DNA of 36,291 nucleotides from Clostridiales bacterium (GTDB lineage Bacteria > Bacillota > Clostridia > Caldicoprobacterales > Xylanivirgaceae): the NCBI GenBank assembly GCA_012799205.1, contig JAAZLT010000086.1, positions 1-36,291 of the forward strand, written 5' to 3'. Below the pieces are notes generated by a model. It was not told the DNA's origin and did no database searches. It saw nothing but the letters and a program-made list of their open reading frames with translations. Numbering within the stretch: position 1 is the stretch's first letter; every line of letters starts with the position of its first letter. A program made the translations under genes and the position numbers. Below are positions 4,485 to 36,074 of this stretch, one piece after another.

Positions 4485-4574
4485 ATGCTTGAGAAAATAT
4501 TATGGGGATTATTTACAAAGACTGGTTCTATAGATATATATATGCTATATAGAAAAATGAAGATAGCAAATTAG
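4485..4574 (+). CDS. YqzL-like small protein, 29 aa (MLEKILWGLFTKTGSIDIYMLYRKMKIAN)
   Basis: Short ORF below the track cutoff. The pattern xxLWGLFTKTGSIDIYMLYRKMK resembles the YqzL-like family (W..F..TG.I..Y.L.K). AAGGAG lies upstream. Confidence 0.72.
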   Translation: MLEKILWGLFTKTGSIDIYMLYRKMKIAN

Positions 4575-4577
4575 GCT

Positions 4578-4823
4578 ATGAAAGAGAGGAGTACATTTCA
4601 TATTTTCTATTAAGAGAGAAGATGTCATGGGCTGAAAGCATCTTTATAGTTATTGAAATGGAAGTTCGCTCTGGAGCTTAGGGCTGAAATAACAGTAGGC
4701 CCTACCGTAAATGTGGCGGTTATTTCACTGTGAGAGACCTTTAGGATTATTATGCCTAAGGGTGAACATAGGTGGTACCACGAAAGTTTATCCTTCGTCC
4801 TATTTTAGGATGGGGGATTTTTA
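4578..4823 (+). ncRNA. T-box leader (tRNA-Phe responsive) upstream of pheST
   Basis: T-box AGGTGGTACCACG (4770-4782), terminator hairpin TCCTTCGTCCTATTTTAGGATGGGGGATTTTT, candidate specifier TTC in GGAAGTTCGCTC, gene downstream is pheS. Confidence 0.92.
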
Positions 4824-4852: not shown

Positions 4853-5872
4853 GTGCGTGAAACGCTTGAAAACATGAGAGATGAAGCGATAGATAGTGTT
4901 GCAAAAATAGACGATTTAAAACAGCTTGACGATCTAAGGCGCAAATACTTAGGAAAAAAGGGTGAACTTACCAAGGTCTTGAGGGGAATGGGGCGACTGC
5001 CTGCCCAGGAGCGGCCTATAATAGGAAGCCTTGCAAATGAAGTGAGAACACTCATACAAACCCAGTTAGACAATCAGAGAGAGAGATTAGAGGAGAGGGC
5101 CTTGGAGGATAGATTGTCTAGGGAAGCAATAGATGTAACCATGCCAGGTGCAAGAATAGATAGAGGAAATCTTCATCCTCTTACTTCTGTACAAAATGAG
5201 ATAGTAGATATCTTTATAGGCATGGGATTTATAGCTGTGGAAGGACCTGATGTAGAACTTGACTACTATAATTTTGAGGCCCTGAATATTCCAAAGGATC
5301 ATCCGGCACGAGATATTCAAGACACATTTTATATAAATGATGAGATGGTACTTAGAACTCATACTTCACCTGTACAGGTTAGGGTAATGGAAGCTGAAGA
5401 GCCGCCAATAAAAATAGTTGTGCCAGGAAGAGTATATAGATCAGATGATGTGGATGCAACTCATTCGCCTATATTTCACCAGATAGAGGGGCTTGTAATA
5501 GATAAAAATGTTACCATGGCAGATCTAAAGGGTGCATTAGATGTATTTGCTAAAGAGTTATTTGGAAAAGATACAAAGACAAGATTTAGGCCGCATTATT
5601 TTCCGTTTACAGAGCCTAGTGTAGAGGTGGATGCCACATGTGTGACCTGTGGGGGGGATGGATGCAGAATATGTTCCAACACTGGATGGATAGAGATTTT
5701 AGGAGCAGGAATGGTCCATCCGAATGTGTTAAGATATGGCAATATAGATCCTAGTATCTATAGCGGCTATGCATTTGGTCTAGGACTTGATAGAATAGTC
5801 AATTTAAAATATGGAATAGACGATATAAGGCTTTTATATGAAAATGATGTAAGATTTTTAAAACAGTTTTAG
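4853..5872 (+). CDS. pheS: Phenylalanine--tRNA ligase alpha subunit
   Basis: [83 protein letters not shown]. Confidence 0.98.
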
Positions 5873-5887: not shown

Positions 5888-8272
5888 TTGTTAATACCTG
5901 TAAGTTGGCTCAGAGAATATGTTGATATAGATATATCCATAGAGGAACTTTGCGATCGAATGATAATGACGGGTTCTAATGTGGAGGGAATAGAGATAAA
6001 GGGAGATAAAATTGAGGGTGTAGTGGTTGGAAAGATACTTACTATAAAGCCTCATGAAGATGCAGATAGGCTTTTAGTATGTAAAGTAGATATAGGAGGT
6101 AGAATAATTCAGGTTGTAACTGGTGCTTCTAATATATCTGAGGGAGACCTTGTGCCCGTAGCAGTTGATGATGCTAGACTTCCAGGGGGCATTAAAATAA
6201 GAAGGGGAAAGCTAAGGGGAGAGCTATCAGAGGGTATGCTCTGCTCCGGCGAAGAACTCGAGCTAACCGATGAAGACTATGAAGGTGCAGATATAGACGG
6301 GATACTCATACTAACTGAAGATTACGAGCTAGGGATGGATATAAAGAAAGCGCTTCTACTTGGGGATGAAGTCATAGAATTCGAAATAACCCCAAATAGA
6401 TCAGATTGTCTTAGTGTAATAGGCATTGCAAGGGAAGTTGCAACCACTATAGGGACCACATTAAAGCTACCTAATATTGAAGTTAAGCCCACCGGAGGGG
6501 ATGTATGCGAAAAGGTAGAGGTAGTAGTAGAAGATACTGACCTTTGCCCTAGATATTGTGCTAGAGTTGTAGAGGATGTAGTTATAGAAAAATCGCCTAT
6601 GTGGATGAGAAGAAGGCTGGCAGATGCAGGGATAAGACCCATAAATAATATAGTGGATATTACCAACTATGTAATGCTAGAGATGGGTCAACCTATGCAT
6701 GCATTTGATCTAGATAAGGTGGAGGATAGAACTATAATAGTAGATAGAGCGATAGATGGAGAAATGCTCACAACTCTAGATGATGTAGATAGAATATTGA
6801 CGCCTGATATGCTCACTATAAGAGATACAAAAAGGGCTATAGCATTGGCAGGGGTCATGGGTGGATTAAATACAGAGATAGATGATAAAACAAGCACAAT
6901 AGTTTTAGAAAGCGCCAAATTTGACGGAGCGAGCGTAAGATCTACATCCCGGAAGCTAGGTCTTAGGTCTGAAGCATCATCTAGATTTGAAAAGGGATTA
7001 GATATTAACTTGCCAGTACTGGCTATAGACAGGGCTGTGCAGCTCATACAAGATCTTGGTGCTGGAAGGGCTATATGTGGTGTATTAGATGTATTAAATG
7101 CAGATACCACAAGGCGCCATATTGAGGTCAATTGGAAGGATATAAACAGATTACTGGGAGTTGAAATAGCTCCAGAAAAAATGATAGATATATTAATATC
7201 CCTTGACTTTGAGGCTGATAGGGATAAAGATAAGCTTAACATTGTGATCCCTACTTATAGGCAAGATATAGAGGGCATGGAAGATATAGCGGAGGAAGTA
7301 GCACGCATATATGGTTATGATAGGATTCCAAAGACATTGACATCAGGCAGTGGAACTAGGGGTAAAAAAAGCCCTAGACAAAAGCTCTTCGACCTTGGAA
7401 AAGAGACTCTAGTTGGTATGGGGCTCTACGAAATAGTTACTTATTCCTTCATTAGTCCTAAGGATTATAATAAAATAGATAAAGATATGCCTAAGGTAGT
7501 CACTATATCAAACCCGCTAGGTGAGGATCAAAGTATAATGCGAACTACCCTAATTCCAAGTATGCTAGATGTGCTCTCTAGAAATAGTAGAAGACGGGTT
7601 GAGCTATGTAAATTATTTGAGATAGGCAAGATTTTTTTACCTAAATCACTACCCCTAGAGGAACTTCCTATAGAAAATCATATGCTCTCTATGGGGTTAT
7701 ATGGGGATGGAATGGACTTTTTCTATTTAAAAGGTATAATAGAGACTTTATTTCATGAATTTGGCATAAAAGATGGGCTAGAATTCGTGCCAATGTCTGA
7801 GGATAGTACCTTTCATCCGGGTAGAACAGCGAATTTAAAGGTTAAAGGGATAAGTCTTGGAATAATGGGGGAAATCCATCCTAAGATAGCAGGTGGCTAT
7901 GGCATAGATATGCCAGTTATTCTAGCAGAGCTTAGCTATGATAAATTGCTTGATCTGGCAGATGTTAAAAAGAGCTATATGCATCTTCCAAGGTATCCAG
8001 CAGTAGATAGGGATCTTTCTATAGTAGTAAAAGAGGATGTATTAGCAGGACATGTAGAAGCTGTGATAAAGGCCTATGGGAAAGAGCTTTTAGAGAGCAT
8101 AGAATTATTTGATGTCTATAGTGGGGGGCAAATCCCAACAGGCTATAAGAGTATGGCATATTCCCTAAGTTATAGGGCCAGTGATAGAACCCTAAAGGAT
8201 GAGGATGTAGGGAAGATTCACGATAAAGTAATCAAAGGTCTTGAGAAGGATATTGATGCTAGACTTAGATAA
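5888..8272 (+). CDS. pheT: Phenylalanine--tRNA ligase beta subunit
   Basis: N-terminal tRNA-binding (EMAP-like) domain, B3/B5 domains and C-terminal FDX-ACB domain; adjacent to pheS. Confidence 0.98.
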   Translation: MLIPVSWLREYVDIDISIEELCDRMIMTGSNVEGIEIKGDKIEGVVVGKILTIKPHEDADRLLVCKVDIGGRIIQVVTGASNISEGDLVPVAVDDARLPGGIKIRRGKLRGELSEGMLCSGEELELTDEDYEGADIDGILILTEDYELGMDIKKALLLGDEVIEFEITPNRSDCLSVIGIAREVATTIGTTLKLPNIEVKPTGGDVCEKVEVVVEDTDLCPRYCARVVEDVVIEKSPMWMRRRLADAGIRPINNIVDITNYVMLEMGQPMHAFDLDKVEDRTIIVDRAIDGEMLTTLDDVDRILTPDMLTIRDTKRAIALAGVMGGLNTEIDDKTSTIVLESAKFDGASVRSTSRKLGLRSEASSRFEKGLDINLPVLAIDRAVQLIQDLGAGRAICGVLDVLNADTTRRHIEVNWKDINRLLGVEIAPEKMIDILISLDFEADRDKDKLNIVIPTYRQDIEGMEDIAEEVARIYGYDRIPKTLTSGSGTRGKKSPRQKLFDLGKETLVGMGLYEIVTYSFISPKDYNKIDKDMPKVVTISNPLGEDQSIMRTTLIPSMLDVLSRNSRRRVELCKLFEIGKIFLPKSLPLEELPIENHMLSMGLYGDGMDFFYLKGIIETLFHEFGIKDGLEFVPMSEDSTFHPGRTANLKVKGISLGIMGEIHPKIAGGYGIDMPVILAELSYDKLLDLADVKKSYMHLPRYPAVDRDLSIVVKEDVLAGHVEAVIKAYGKELLESIELFDVYSGGQIPTGYKSMAYSLSYRASDRTLKDEDVGKIHDKVIKGLEKDIDARLR

Positions 8273-20727: not shown

Positions 20728-20884
20728 TGTATTTCACTCCTCCTAAAATCAATTACTATTATATATTATACTACAAAGGGGCTGTAATAAGAAATACGAT
20801 TTTGATATTCATCGGGGTTTGAAAAATGGTAAAAACATGTTACAATATAGATAATCATAAACAACAAAAGGAGTGGCTAAACAT

Positions 20885-21427
20885 ATGGATCATTTCCATG
20901 AAGAGTCTGTAAGCAAAGTGAATACGGGGTTAAACACTTTGGTTTATATATTGACCTCCATAACTATGGTAGTATTCGCCATAATAGCGGTTAGCTTTTT
21001 AATGTCCATAATGACATCGGAAAATATTATACTCAGTATTATTTTGATAGTGGTATTTGGGGGCCTAGCATACGGAAGTTTTGTGCTTAGAAACAACCAA
21101 AGGGTGGAATATGATTATACATTTACAAATGGGATACTAGATGTAGCGAAAATTACCAATAACTCAAAGAGAAAGCGAGTTTTGTCGGCAGATATAAGAG
21201 AATTTGAAATCGTTGCCTCTACAAAGGATCCAGGATTTGAAAGAATGCTAAATCATAAGGGTATAGAAAAGAGACATAATGTATTTTTAAATAGGGGCTA
21301 TGGTTTATATTACGGTATATTTGATGATAATGGAGTAAAATCCATGATTGTATTTGAACCAAGTGAGACCATGTTAAAATTGTTTAAGAAATTTAATCCA
21401 AGGAATGTTAAGACAGACATATCTTAA
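20885..21427 (+). CDS. Conserved hypothetical membrane protein (two TMs near the N-terminus)
   Basis: MDHFHEESVSKVNTGLNTLVYILTSITMVVFAIIAVSFLM...; AAAGGAG upstream of ATG 20885. Confidence 0.75.
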   Translation: MDHFHEESVSKVNTGLNTLVYILTSITMVVFAIIAVSFLMSIMTSENIILSIILIVVFGGLAYGSFVLRNNQRVEYDYTFTNGILDVAKITNNSKRKRVLSADIREFEIVASTKDPGFERMLNHKGIEKRHNVFLNRGYGLYYGIFDDNGVKSMIVFEPSETMLKLFKKFNPRNVKTDIS

Positions 21428-27870: not shown

Positions 27871-27912
27871 AAAAGGATGGCCAAATGTGGTAAGACACTA
27901 GGCCATCCTTTT
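27871..27912. terminator. Bidirectional terminator between convergent genes
   Basis: AAAAGGATGGCC...GGCCATCCTTTT. Confidence 0.9.
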
Positions 27913-27982: not shown

Positions 27983-30900
27983 TTATAAAACGATCTTTTC
28001 TTCATCTTTAAGTTCCTTTAGTTTTGAGAATATATATTGCACCTTCATATTATCAGATTTAGTGAGCGTTTCAAAATCTCCTATTAGCACCAGCTTTGTT
28101 TTAGCCCTAGAAAGCGCCACATTCACCCTTCTAAAATCTCTCAAAAATCCAGTCTTAGTCGGGCCATCGTCTATCTCGTAGTTACTTCTGACCCAGTTTA
28201 TAATTACAATATCCTGTTCTCTACCCTGGAATGAATCTATGGTATATATATTCTTGTTTATAAATTGGCCCAATGCCTGATTATGCTCTGCAAAATATTC
28301 AGAGCTCTCCATAAAGAGTTCTTTTATCTTCTCTGCATGGGCTTTATAGGGAGTAATAATACAGATATCATTTAAATCCTTGCCATCAACCAAAAGATCC
28401 ATCACCTTCTTTATAGACAACATAGCTTCAGTGAGATTAAAATAGGTAGAGTTTACCTCTGTTTCTGCCCTTGTTTCAGGATCTGTGATCTCTGATGTAT
28501 CTATTATTTCAATGGCATCACTTGGAAAGAATTTCTCCCTTTCGCTTTTTGGTATCTTATAATATTTAGACTCTAGATTAGGAGTGAGCCCTCCATCATA
28601 TACAAGGTCCGATATTAAGGAGACCATTTGAGGGTTTTGCGTTCTATAGTTTATATCTAAAAACACGCTATTAAACCTGTATTTATCCGTTATCAATAGT
28701 TCAAAGAGACTTCTTTGTAGATCCTCTCTAGTTTGTATATCCATATATGGATCATATTCCATTAGTATCTCATTTTGTATAGGAAACGGAGGTATCTGCA
28801 GATGATCGCCTATCATCACACATCGATTCGCAAATTGTAGAGCGAACAATGTCTCGGGTATATTCATCTGGGATGCCTCATCTATTATTAGAATATCAAA
28901 TCTATCCATATCAAAATTCCTATCTAATAAAAAGCCCATGGGCGTTCCTAGCACAATTTTATTTTTACCCTCTAGAAGCGCCAAATATTCTGGGTTAGAT
29001 GTAGATATAGTGGGAGCATAGGAAAGGGTTGATTTAAATTCTATATTATTCCCAGTTCTTAGAACTCTTACCTTGCCCTTAGCCAACTTCTCTAGTACAT
29101 TATCTACGGCAATATTGGTCTTTGCCATTATAAGCACATCTTTGCCCCTATTATAGTATTGGAGAGCAATTTCCTCAATTAAAGTAGTCTTTCCAGTGCC
29201 TGGAGGCCCTTGGACTATGACAAGGGGGTTATCCGAGTTAAGAGACAGAGCAAGCTCTACACCTTGCCTTTGCGCGCTGTTTGTGACTATATCTTTGTTA
29301 TAAAATTTATCATCAGAAATAGTATCAAATTTTTCTACAGCTTTAGAGTTTTTTAGCCCAAGCACTATTGCTAGGAGCCCATCTAGTACATCATTTTCTA
29401 TTTCATATATTAAAGCATTGATATAGTCTAGTAGAATGCTATCATTAGAATCTCTAGCAAAGGCATCTATATTTGCAAGGCCCTCCTCTGTCAAATTACT
29501 AAAGGATTTGAGCTCTACTATATATCCATCATTCATTTTCTTTTCACGACATTCTAATACCTCAAACTCATATTTGCCATGGGCGTGTATAATATCCCCC
29601 GGGAAAAGTGCTACAGGGATCTGATATATAACCGAATCTTCTAGGGTTACCAAAAACATAGCATCTATATGATGAAAGGTCTTAATCTGTATCTCTAATA
29701 TCTTTGTATACATATTGAGCCAATCTACTATCTCTTTAGCATCGTTTAAATTCGCCTTATCAGGTTCTGCAAATTGTATCTTATTTTCTAGTTCAAAGTC
29801 TGGTTCTTTTATACCTACAAGCCTATAAAGATCAGACCTTCTTAACCTATAATCCCCATTTCTAGGTTTTCTCAAGCCCAGTACATCCCTTGGGACACTT
29901 TTTAAATGGTCATATAAAAAATCTAAATATTTCTTCTTAGTTAGTGGAGCAAGCACAGTTACAAGCCCCCTCTTATAGATATCTGCCTTTTTGGCATTGT
30001 TTATGGCGCTATATTTACGACATAAACTTTCTAAGGGGAATAATTTAAGATAGCTATTTATAAAAGATTTCATATTTGCTCTACTGTCAAAGTATTTTTT
30101 ATGTCTTTTATTATCTATTGTGCTAAGCCTACCTGTGCGCGGGTTAATGTCTAGTTTTGGGATATTTAATACATTAAATAAATACTCATTTATCTGGACA
30201 TCCTTTTTTGGCACCTTTGCTGCATAGTGATAGTATAATCCACATAGGGTTTTATTGTTTAAAAATGCCAGCTCTACAGAATCAAACTCTCTTGTGCCCA
30301 TAAGTCTTGGATGGACAAGACCCATCTCTGCAGCTGCCCTTATTACAATCTCTCTTTGTACATATCTAGGTACTCTTTCCCATCTAACCATAGTAGAGTT
30401 TGAGATAGCTGTAATCCACTCATTTATGCTTAGCTCTTCTACGCCTAGTTCATCGAATATATGTTTTAATACCGGCTCATCTCTACTCTCCATACTACTA
30501 CTAAAATAATAATATAATCCTGATAGAGTTTTGCCACCTAATAGTTCAAATCTAGTATTGGCAAGGTCATTATAGTTCATAAATCTAGGGTTTTGAAAGC
30601 CCAATTCATAGGCGGCCCTATATAATATATCTCTTTTTATATACTTTGGTATGGAGTCCCACTTGACTTTAGAATTCTCCCTGCTTATGATAAAGATCCA
30701 CTGATCTGTATTTAGGCGGGGTACACCCAAAGTTTCGCACATATACTCTATTACATCCTGTGTTGTCTCTTTGCCTAGAGTTTCGATACCTTGTAGGCTA
30801 CTAAAATGCGTATACAAAGAGGTAAGAGTTTTGCCGCCTAAGGCCCTAGTGGGCTCATTCAACTCCTCATATTTGAGCATACGAGGGTTGTCTTTGCCAT

Positions 30901-31891
30901 GTTCTCTCACCTTTAAAAACAAAAGTCCTCTTATATGCTCTTTAGATGCAAGATCCCAGTTGTAATTTTTGCTACGAGATAGCAGCGCTACCCATTCATT
31001 GAAGGAGAGAGGGGGGATGTCGTACATATTGCATATGTAGTCTATGCTAGATACGCCATCTTTCTCCGCTCCGAAAAACCTGGACACGAAGCTATAGAGA
31101 CTTATGCCCTTTAGACATTTTAGTTTAATCTTTAGATCATCTGTAGACATCATGCGAGGATTAGTATATCCAAGTTCTGATCCTGCCTCTAATAATAGTC
31201 TATGCATTATATCAGATGGTATTATGTCCCAGAAAACTGTAGTAGAATCACTGGTAATATATTCAATCCAACAATTATAATCTATCTCTATATTAAGTGA
31301 ATCGCACATATATTTTATGACACTGCCTCGGATTCCCGACGCCTGCCTCCTAAAATAGGTATAAAATCCCGTAAGAGTTCTTCCATTTAGGAAATCAAAT
31401 TTCCTAGAAAAGTCCTCATTTCTAAAAAATATGGGATGTGAATATCCAAGCTCCTTTGCTGCCATAAGAAAGATTTTTCTTTTAGCAGGGTCTGAGATAT
31501 TCTTCCATGAGAATATATTTTTATGACCTATATGGTATATCCATTCATCTGGGCTGACATCTGGGATGCCTAGATTATCACATACATTTTTTATAATATG
31601 CTCCCCAGGTTTTCTGGGGACATTATTTTTATAATATGAATAAAGGCCGTTTAATGGAGAATAGTTTATAAATTCAAATCTATGCTCTTCTAGATCTTTG
31701 GACGCAACAAAGCGAGGGCTTGAAAGATTGAGTTCATCTGCAACCTTATATAAAAGTTCTTGATGAATTTTTCTACCCACCCTTTCCCAAGTAAAGGCCT
31801 TGGGCCTTTTTTGCCTGTCCTGCCTAGAGAGAATCTCCACAACGTCCTCTAAGGATCTATATTGTATTTTATCTTTAGCTACTGCACACAC
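27983..31891 (-). CDS. 1302-aa protein: about six N-terminal ~92-aa tandem repeats, linker, C-terminal Upf1/DNA2-like SF1 helicase
   Basis: Helicase motifs: IVQGPPGTGKTTLIEE (I; about 29186-29209), ILIIDEASQMNIPETLFAL (II), VMIGDHLQIPP (III), INYRTQNPQMVSLIS (IV), ICIITPYKAHAEKI, IYTIDSFQGREQDIVII (V), RRVNVALSRAKTKLVLIGD (VI). GTG start with AAAGGAGA upstream. Confidence 0.95.
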   Translation of the reverse strand: MCAVAKDKIQYRSLEDVVEILSRQDRQKRPKAFTWERVGRKIHQELLYKVADELNLSSPRFVASKDLEEHRFEFINYSPLNGLYSYYKNNVPRKPGEHIIKNVCDNLGIPDVSPDEWIYHIGHKNIFSWKNISDPAKRKIFLMAAKELGYSHPIFFRNEDFSRKFDFLNGRTLTGFYTYFRRQASGIRGSVIKYMCDSLNIEIDYNCWIEYITSDSTTVFWDIIPSDIMHRLLLEAGSELGYTNPRMMSTDDLKIKLKCLKGISLYSFVSRFFGAEKDGVSSIDYICNMYDIPPLSFNEWVALLSRSKNYNWDLASKEHIRGLLFLKVREHGKDNPRMLKYEELNEPTRALGGKTLTSLYTHFSSLQGIETLGKETTQDVIEYMCETLGVPRLNTDQWIFIISRENSKVKWDSIPKYIKRDILYRAAYELGFQNPRFMNYNDLANTRFELLGGKTLSGLYYYFSSSMESRDEPVLKHIFDELGVEELSINEWITAISNSTMVRWERVPRYVQREIVIRAAAEMGLVHPRLMGTREFDSVELAFLNNKTLCGLYYHYAAKVPKKDVQINEYLFNVLNIPKLDINPRTGRLSTIDNKRHKKYFDSRANMKSFINSYLKLFPLESLCRKYSAINNAKKADIYKRGLVTVLAPLTKKKYLDFLYDHLKSVPRDVLGLRKPRNGDYRLRRSDLYRLVGIKEPDFELENKIQFAEPDKANLNDAKEIVDWLNMYTKILEIQIKTFHHIDAMFLVTLEDSVIYQIPVALFPGDIIHAHGKYEFEVLECREKKMNDGYIVELKSFSNLTEEGLANIDAFARDSNDSILLDYINALIYEIENDVLDGLLAIVLGLKNSKAVEKFDTISDDKFYNKDIVTNSAQRQGVELALSLNSDNPLVIVQGPPGTGKTTLIEEIALQYYNRGKDVLIMAKTNIAVDNVLEKLAKGKVRVLRTGNNIEFKSTLSYAPTISTSNPEYLALLEGKNKIVLGTPMGFLLDRNFDMDRFDILIIDEASQMNIPETLFALQFANRCVMIGDHLQIPPFPIQNEILMEYDPYMDIQTREDLQRSLFELLITDKYRFNSVFLDINYRTQNPQMVSLISDLVYDGGLTPNLESKYYKIPKSEREKFFPSDAIEIIDTSEITDPETRAETEVNSTYFNLTEAMLSIKKVMDLLVDGKDLNDICIITPYKAHAEKIKELFMESSEYFAEHNQALGQFINKNIYTIDSFQGREQDIVIINWVRSNYEIDDGPTKTGFLRDFRRVNVALSRAKTKLVLIGDFETLTKSDNMKVQYIFSKLKELKDEEKIVL
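30152..31858 (-). repeat. Six tandem ~90-98-aa protein repeats (residues about 12-580)
   Basis: Aligned by eye: EW(I/V)...S....W..(I/V)P..I.R.(I/L)L..AA.ELG(Y/F).(N/H)PR.M...DL....F..L.GKTL.GLY.YF.......VI.Y.CD.LGI..L. Approximate bounds in residues: 12-112, 113-204, 205-295, 296-393, 394-487, 488-580. Confidence 0.85.
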
Positions 31892-32127
31892 TGTAGAAAT
31901 CTCCTTTATAAAAAAATTAATTATGTCAATAAATCACCTATATTAACATTATACTTTAAATACCACCTGAGGATAATGGCAAGAATAACAGATTTTTAGG
32001 TGGTCCTTTTTGTGGATATTGACAGTAAGTATCCGGCATCCGAGTTCTTTTATATAGTTGGATATGATATAATGAACACATTGTATAGATAAATATATCA
32101 TATATAGAAAGGGGATCATAAAGGCTT

Positions 32128-34472: not shown

Positions 34473-36074
34473 ATGAGCAGGAAAAAAGCAATTATAATAA
34501 CAACTATATTAACTTTAATTATAGGCATTATAGCATTTTACCTATTGCTCCCGGCATTGAATATCAAATCAGAAGGATTCTGGTTATTTATAATGGGAAT
34601 TGTAGGCCTCTCTAGTTTTATCTTGGTTGTACTCTATAGTATAGTTGGATATGATTTTAAAAAAGTCACTGCTGGTTCTAGTACAATATTGATATTATTA
34701 GTCTCAGTATTACTTATCGGTCAAGCAAGTAGTGCAGTTATATTTAGAGCAAAAAGCTATGCAAAGCTAATGCATAGCCATATAACAGAACATGATTTTG
34801 AAGATTACAACGCAACTATAGAAAATGTTCCACTTATGGATAAAGACAGTGCCATGAAAATAGCCAATAGAAAATTAGGTGAGCTAGAGGATGTGATCTC
34901 TCAGTATGAAATTGATGATACGGAGCAGATAACTGTAAGGGGTGAGCCAATTAGAGTGGCCTGTCTAAATCACGCCGGATTTATTAAATGGCTCAGTAAT
35001 CGTCATAGTGGCACACCAGGATTTATTAAAGTGGATATGAATACGCAAGAGGCAGAACTGGTTAGGGTGGATGGAGGCATAAAATACACAAAAAGTGATT
35101 TTTTCGGTAGGGATTTAACCAGATATCTAAGGATGAATTATCCAACTAAAATATTCTGGGAGACAACATTAGAGCTAGATGAAAAAGAGCATCCCTACTG
35201 GGTGACAGCGACCCTAGATAAAACTATAGGCCTATTCGGAGGCACAGAGGTATCGGGGGCTGTGTTAATAGATGCCGTTACGGGTGAACATGCTCTATAT
35301 AGTTTAGAAGATATTCCAGAATGGGTAGATAATGTCTATGGATCTAGCTTACTATTAGATCAATTCGATAAATATGGAATGTATCAAAATGGTTTTTTAA
35401 ACTCTATAATCGGACAAAAAGGCGTTAGAAGGACTACGGAGGGCTATAATTATATTCCACAAGGCAATGATAACTGGATTTATACTGGAATAACCAGTGT
35501 AGGAAAAGATGAGAGCAATATAGGTTTTATACTGGTCAATAAAAGAACCAAAGAGACCCATTACTACGGTGTATCAGGAGCGGAAGAGTTCTCCGCAATG
35601 AATAGTGCAGAGGGTGCAGTACAGCATCTAGGGTATAGATCTACCTTCCCGCTACTTTTAAAAATAGGGGGTCAACCTACCTATTTAGTATCATTAAAGG
35701 ATAGTGGCGGGCTGGTGAAAATGTATGCAATGGTGAATGTGGCAAAATATCAAATTGTAGCTACAGGCAGCAATATATCTGAAACCCTATCCCAATATAG
35801 TAAGCTTTTAAAAGATAGTGGAATCAACGTAAGCGGCTTGGGGTCTAAGAGTATATCGGGTATAATAGAGGATATAAAGATGGCAACTGTAGAGGGGAAT
35901 TCCAATTACTTTATTAAATTAAAAGGGGATGCAAGTTATTACCTATTGGACATTAGGGATAATAAAAGGGCGGGTATCTTAAGCCTAGGGGATCATATTA
36001 TATTAAATCTAGAAGTAATTGATAATGGTAGTGATATAGTGCCAGCACAACTGCAAGATGGCGATGGGTTTTGA
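34473..36074 (+). CDS. Large conserved hypothetical membrane protein (three N-terminal TMs plus ~430-aa soluble region)
   Basis: Hydrophobic segments at about residues 7-30, 37-60 and 70-92, then a long soluble domain. Confidence 0.8.
   Translation: MSRKKAIIITTILTLIIGIIAFYLLLPALNIKSEGFWLFIMGIVGLSSFILVVLYSIVGYDFKKVTAGSSTILILLVSVLLIGQASSAVIFRAKSYAKLMHSHITEHDFEDYNATIENVPLMDKDSAMKIANRKLGELEDVISQYEIDDTEQITVRGEPIRVACLNHAGFIKWLSNRHSGTPGFIKVDMNTQEAELVRVDGGIKYTKSDFFGRDLTRYLRMNYPTKIFWETTLELDEKEHPYWVTATLDKTIGLFGGTEVSGAVLIDAVTGEHALYSLEDIPEWVDNVYGSSLLLDQFDKYGMYQNGFLNSIIGQKGVRRTTEGYNYIPQGNDNWIYTGITSVGKDESNIGFILVNKRTKETHYYGVSGAEEFSAMNSAEGAVQHLGYRSTFPLLLKIGGQPTYLVSLKDSGGLVKMYAMVNVAKYQIVATGSNISETLSQYSKLLKDSGINVSGLGSKSISGIIEDIKMATVEGNSNYFIKLKGDASYYLLDIRDNKRAGILSLGDHIILNLEVIDNGSDIVPAQLQDGDGF

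Follow-up and report, generated by a model that had tools for sequence, protein, structure and literature searches.

Upf1-like helicases carry a 1B "stalk" and "barrel" that have been described (PMC5452015). In Sen1, the Upf1-like motor is preceded by a helical-repeat N-terminal domain (PMC10317158; PMC5452015). This solenoid makes contact with RNA polymerase (PMC10317158), and the association of Sen1 with the replisome requires its N terminus (PMC7034062). We analyzed a 36,291-nucleotide stretch of DNA from a Clostridiales bacterium (contig JAAZLT010000086.1, called the window here), in which one gene codes for a protein with a Upf1-like motor and an array of six N-terminal repeats. Upf1, IGHMBP2, DNA2 and Sen1 are the top sequence and fold matches of this protein and share with it the full set of SF1 motifs as well as the 1B stalk and barrel. 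However, the protein is bacterial, its array and its linker family occur in none of them, and no CH, R3H or nuclease domain was detected in it with Pfam, whereas DNA2 has a fused nuclease. The arrangement of a helical-repeat N-terminal arm and a Upf1-like motor is also that of Sen1/senataxin and Aquarius, but their arms have no detectable sequence or fold relation to the array, which is made of 92-aa multi-helix modules and not of HEAT or ARM pairs. The IGHMBP2 family model TIGR00376 scored 215 bits over the motor, below its curated cut-off of 348.9, and the extra 600-aa array further sets the protein apart from that family. We favor, with a probability of roughly 55%, the interpretation that this is a stand-alone, vertically inherited housekeeping helicase of the Upf1-like (SF1B) type with a fixed docking or scaffold arm.

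A single-gene unit

The helicase gene extends from 27983 to 31891 on the minus strand, starts with a GTG codon at 31891 and codes for 1,302 residues; full-length homologs exist. It has no companion on the same strand and forms a single-gene unit. A Shine-Dalgarno-like AAAGGAG is located ahead of the start codon (31901 to 31907, minus strand), and GAAAGGAGA is common to 8 of 20 upstream regions of homologs. A 12-bp hairpin with an 18-nt loop, AAAAGGATGGCC...GGCCATCCTTTT, was read at positions 27871 to 27912 (no strand assigned), between the helicase gene and the convergent gene of an SGNH hydrolase. The preliminary description had given the helicase its own terminator. The hairpin does adjoin the gene, but it is probably a bidirectional terminator shared with the SGNH-hydrolase gene.

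Motor, 1B region and linker

The SF1B motor (27986 to 29296, minus strand; residues 866 to 1302) was identified by Pfam AAA_11 and AAA_12 matches above cut-off, by its motifs and by fold comparisons. Motifs Q and I to VI, which define an SF1B motor, are all present: Q at residues 871 to 878, motif I or Walker A (GPPGTGKTT) at 895 to 903 (29183 to 29209, minus strand), Ia at 923 to 931, II (DEASQ) at 1004 to 1008, III (GDHLQIPP) at 1028 to 1035, IV at 1179 to 1184, V at 1217 to 1225 and VI at 1254 to 1264. Pfam, NCBIfam and PADLOC matches were restricted to the motor. Beyond motif VI the protein continues for only 38 residues and therefore has no C-terminal nuclease; no nuclease family matched any part of it.

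The AlphaFold model of residues 590 to 1302 is of moderate confidence (pLDDT 64.5), poorer than that of the array. It shows, in order, a stalk helix, a beta-barrel, a second stalk helix and RecA1/RecA2, which places the 1B-like stalk helices and barrel at residues ~718 to 832 (29396 to 29740, minus strand), in agreement with the fold matches. Foldseek searches with this model retrieved Dna2, Upf1, Ighmbp2 and Sen1 at E values of 1e-17 to 1e-22, the alignments to Upf1, Ighmbp2 and Dna2 covering about 660 to 690 columns. Between the array and the 1B region, residues 586 to 715 (29747 to 30136, minus strand) form a family-specific linker domain recognized by its conserved motifs, with YFDS.AN and IYK+GL among the invariant ones. 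Across 299 genomes sampled in the phylum, this linker occurred solely together with the repeats. The Upf1/DNA2-like motor with its full motif set, the missing C-terminal nuclease and the linker/1B-like region of the preliminary description were thus all borne out.

The N-terminal array

Residues 15 to 585 consist of six diverged, all-helical repeats of ~92 aa that start near residues 15, 109, 201, 292, 391 and 484. Leave-one-out profiles, in which the other five repeats find the sixth, yielded E values of 7.9e-16, 3.8e-21, 1.8e-14, 2.2e-15, 5.9e-27 and 9.7e-24 for repeats 1 to 6, whereas the best E value in 999 shuffles never fell below 0.025. The profiles delimit, all on the minus strand, repeat 1 at 31568 to 31849 (residues 15 to 108), repeat 2 at 31292 to 31567 (109 to 200), repeat 3 at 31019 to 31291 (201 to 291), repeat 4 at 30722 to 31018 (292 to 390), repeat 5 at 30443 to 30721 (391 to 483), and repeat 6 with the linker junction at 30137 to 30442 (484 to 585). 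The six tandem copies noticed earlier are therefore confirmed (1.8e-14 to 5.9e-27, against at least 0.025 for shuffles); a small correction to the proposed extent of residues ~12 to 580 is that the array reaches ~585. The consensus of 42 copies is (EWI..I).......W..VP....R.IL..AA.ELG..NPR.....D.....F.FLNGKTL.GLY.YY..........I..ICD.L, in which a W, a P and an L are invariant. Most repeats are near neutral in net charge, repeat 1 being the exception (usually +4 to +9 in the order).

The repeat had no credible match in Pfam, NCBIfam, PHROGs, PADLOC, PDB sequences or fold libraries, and sequence profiles found no PDB relative of the array and linker. PHROGs matches were confined to the motor, besides sub-threshold ones to a 26-residue stretch. 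Matches to PGR5 (NCBIfam) in 14 of 17 arrays were dismissed as chance similarity over a stretch of ~20 residues, summed over the repeats; the window's array scored 13.6 bits against a cut-off of 50. The array was modeled by AlphaFold as entirely helical (pLDDT 85.8, pTM 0.60), and with this model Foldseek retrieved nothing at E < 0.001 among solved or viral folds; the resemblances to phage and viral folds were not significant. The repeat family is thus uncatalogued in the public libraries tested; the first reading of the sequence had recognized no known family for it.

The several short helices of each repeat would be compatible with nucleic-acid-binding modules of the Myb/HTH type, as in the HA domain or homing-endonuclease-associated repeats. 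Such a role would also agree with weak, non-significant Pfam matches to HTH_26, Cdc6_C and Ets, and with weak viral fold matches of the array to HA-bearing or SF2 helicases (E 0.007 and 1.4). HA domains of actinobacterial and giant-virus helicases likewise occur as helical repeats in tandem, contain a W and are fused to a helicase. However, they are ~65 aa long, belong to DEAD/SF2-type helicases and have no profile match to the repeat; in an hhalign comparison with a profile of 29 HA repeats the probability was 0.2%, and homology was rejected. Together with the near-neutral charge outside repeat 1 and the lack of fold matches at E < 0.001, this makes nucleic-acid-binding repeats an unlikely alternative. 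All-helical, near-neutral modules, as modeled, would be more in keeping with a scaffold that binds proteins than with a grip on nucleic acids.

Distribution and vertical inheritance

Of 30 genomes of the order, 18 have a full-length homolog. By family, these homologs occur in 4/4 genomes of f1, 7/7 of f2, 5/6 of f3 and 2/13 of f4, the last two in one genus only. With 16 carriers among the 17 sampled members of f1 to f3, the helicase is effectively a core-genome gene of three bacterial families; its absence from 11/13 genomes of f4 and 1/6 of f3 nevertheless shows that it is dispensable. Elsewhere in the class, no sampled genome had a homolog. In the phylum, three species of one genus (L058, L059 and L060) in a second class were the only further carriers detected; in that class, the gene is limited to 1 of 16 genera. 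Their proteins have repeats 2 to 6, without the last helix of repeat 5; repeat 1 is missing and the N terminus is different.

Every homolog in the order has exactly six repeats of nearly identical lengths, apart from six additional residues in repeat 4 of the window's genome and of G003, and no stray repeat was found elsewhere in the genomes. The survey for repeat-number variation proposed earlier thus found none inside the order, and variable repeat number was rejected, the longer-looking proteins of L003 and L017 being due to runs of N. This constancy argues against a diversifying recognition array. When all repeats were placed on one tree, those of each position formed their own clade across both classes, indicating that the array predates the class split and was neither expanded nor shuffled.

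The divergence of the helicase parallels that of PcrA: their pairwise identities correlate with r = 0.95 (105 pairs from 15 genomes), and identity across the class split is 47% for both. Inheritance looks vertical and clock-like. Within the order, dN/dS is 0.04 to 0.07 for the repeats and 0.08 to 0.09 for PcrA, and the helicase is under strong purifying selection. In the second-class species, the ratio is 0.18 to 0.28 for the repeats and 0.07 for the motor. The helicase tree recovers each of families f1, f2 and f3. It rejects an f2+f4 clade (AU p = 0.005), which PcrA weakly prefers (77% support), a conflict for which long branches were flagged. The conflict may reflect a rate change or a transfer into the f4 genus.

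The same genomes bear on a function in DNA repair or end processing, in which the protein would fill a DNA2-like role without a nuclease of its own. DNA2 is the best PDB match in both sequence and fold, and the f1 and most f2 genomes have no AddA above its curated cut-off. However, canonical AddA is present in 6/6 f3 genomes, five of them helicase positive, as well as in most helicase-negative f4 genomes, which precludes a simple substitution for AddA. No LexA-like (SOS) box is conserved upstream of the homologs either, where we found a single match, with one mismatch. We therefore regard a repair function as doubtful. Replacement of AddAB was rejected, as the pattern is inconsistent across genomes. 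As a separate observation, most of the genomes without AddA above the cut-off (G000 to G003 and most of f2) have a divergent AddA-like protein of ~800 to 1250 aa.

Gene neighborhood and the question of defense

Neighboring genes were named from sequence only. In f1 and f2, the helicase gene and cbiM, which belongs to a cbiMQO cluster, are divergently oriented, and adk lies nearby. The f2 and f3 copies adjoin tsaD, with tsaD/rimI genes as neighbors, and in the f4 genus the gene sits between adk and ychF. In f4 genomes without the helicase, adk-cbiOQM is intact, and pairs of chromate-transporter-like (chrA-type) genes or other genes occupy the interval between cbiM and ychF. This points to an ancestral adk-cbiOQM-helicase-ychF slot, with loss in f4. 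The window has kept the left side of the slot as in UBA3920. On the right side, it has an M20 peptidase and sugar genes, which accounts for the accessory look of the gene.

The tsaD/rimI neighbors of f2 and f3 could speak for a surveillance helicase linked to RNA or ribosomes, similar to IGHMBP2 or Upf1, to both of which the motor and 1B region are equally near. Nevertheless, the neighbors are different in f1 and f4, and co-regulation with tsaD is not implied, as the tsaD genes are on the opposite strand. We give this function a low probability.

The preliminary description considered the gene accessory and possibly anti-phage. Neither suggestion was supported: 16 of the 17 genomes of f1 to f3 carry the gene, in old chromosomal neighborhoods (adk-cbiMQO-ychF, tsaD), and its divergence is PcrA-like. 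The test for conservation in syntenic core positions, made in f1 to f3, thus came out against an accessory or defense reading. No copy of the helicase was found in viral contigs or in phage and plasmid collections, and a mobile origin was rejected. The syntenic neighborhood is not that of a defense island, a patchy distribution of the gene is confined to f4 and the second class, and no defense gene was detected among the 10 window neighbors searched.

A stand-alone anti-phage protein, with repeats that recognize a molecule of the invader and a motor directed at the invader's RNA or DNA, would be in line with this patchiness, with the faster evolution of the second-class repeats relative to the motor, and with MkoA of the Mokosh system as the closest PADLOC profile (PDLC03920, 266 bits). 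The MkoA match is to the motor part only, however, and the Mokosh PLD/NERD nuclease is found neither in the protein nor among the 10 neighbors, which also include no kinase or other Mokosh partner; core inheritance is a further difference. Near-universal, clock-like and syntenic occurrence in three families, a fixed repeat number and the lack of a partner effector or nuclease domain also oppose this alternative, which we consider quite improbable. A defense role is unlikely; the strong purifying selection on the gene also speaks against it.

In f4 genomes L116, L118, L119, L120 and L122, the cbiM-ychF interval, where relatives have the helicase, is variable. It is filled by chromate-transporter-like pairs, an AzlC/AzlD-like pair or an ORF of 824 to 833 aa that resembles a glycan phosphorylase, judging from its sequence alone.

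A possible docking arm

If the protein is a housekeeping helicase, as we favor, its motor and 1B stalk and barrel, complete in their motifs, would bind single-stranded RNA or DNA and move along it with ATP, as in related proteins; family knowledge predicts movement in the 5'-3' direction. The six-repeat arm would serve as a fixed dock that brings the motor to a single conserved partner in the cell, most likely a component of the machinery for transcription, replication or repair. As the repeats differ from one another while each is highly conserved, with little net charge in most of them, we infer that the arm is a scaffold whose faces are specific to each position. Of the "recognition or scaffold module" first proposed for the array, the scaffold is thus favored, while a diversifying recognition array does not agree with the fixed repeat number. 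A counterpoint to a docking arm is that the array matched no known solenoid.

By analogy, the protein might be a bacterial counterpart of Sen1, in which a new six-module arm, evolved apart from the eukaryotic one, docks the Upf1-like motor on RNA polymerase or the replisome and clears R-loops or stalled complexes throughout the order. We hold this more specific proposal to be rather improbable. If the arm did dock on either machinery, it would represent an independent bacterial origin of the Sen1 plan. Replacement of Rho by the helicase was rejected, as Rho is present in 37 of 38 genomes whether or not they have the helicase. The conservation of the gene across the order, together with its natural losses in sister genera, provides a contrast that can be used directly in the search for its function.

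Elsewhere in the window, a 533-aa ORF (34473 to 36074, plus strand) and a 184-aa ORF (20873 to 21427) had no Pfam match at E 1e-5. A T-box leader (Rfam RF00230, 126 bits) was found at 4569 to 4805 on the plus strand. It adjoins downstream ORFs at 4853 to 5872 (339 aa) and 5888 to 8272 (794 aa), whose sizes suggest pheS-pheT.
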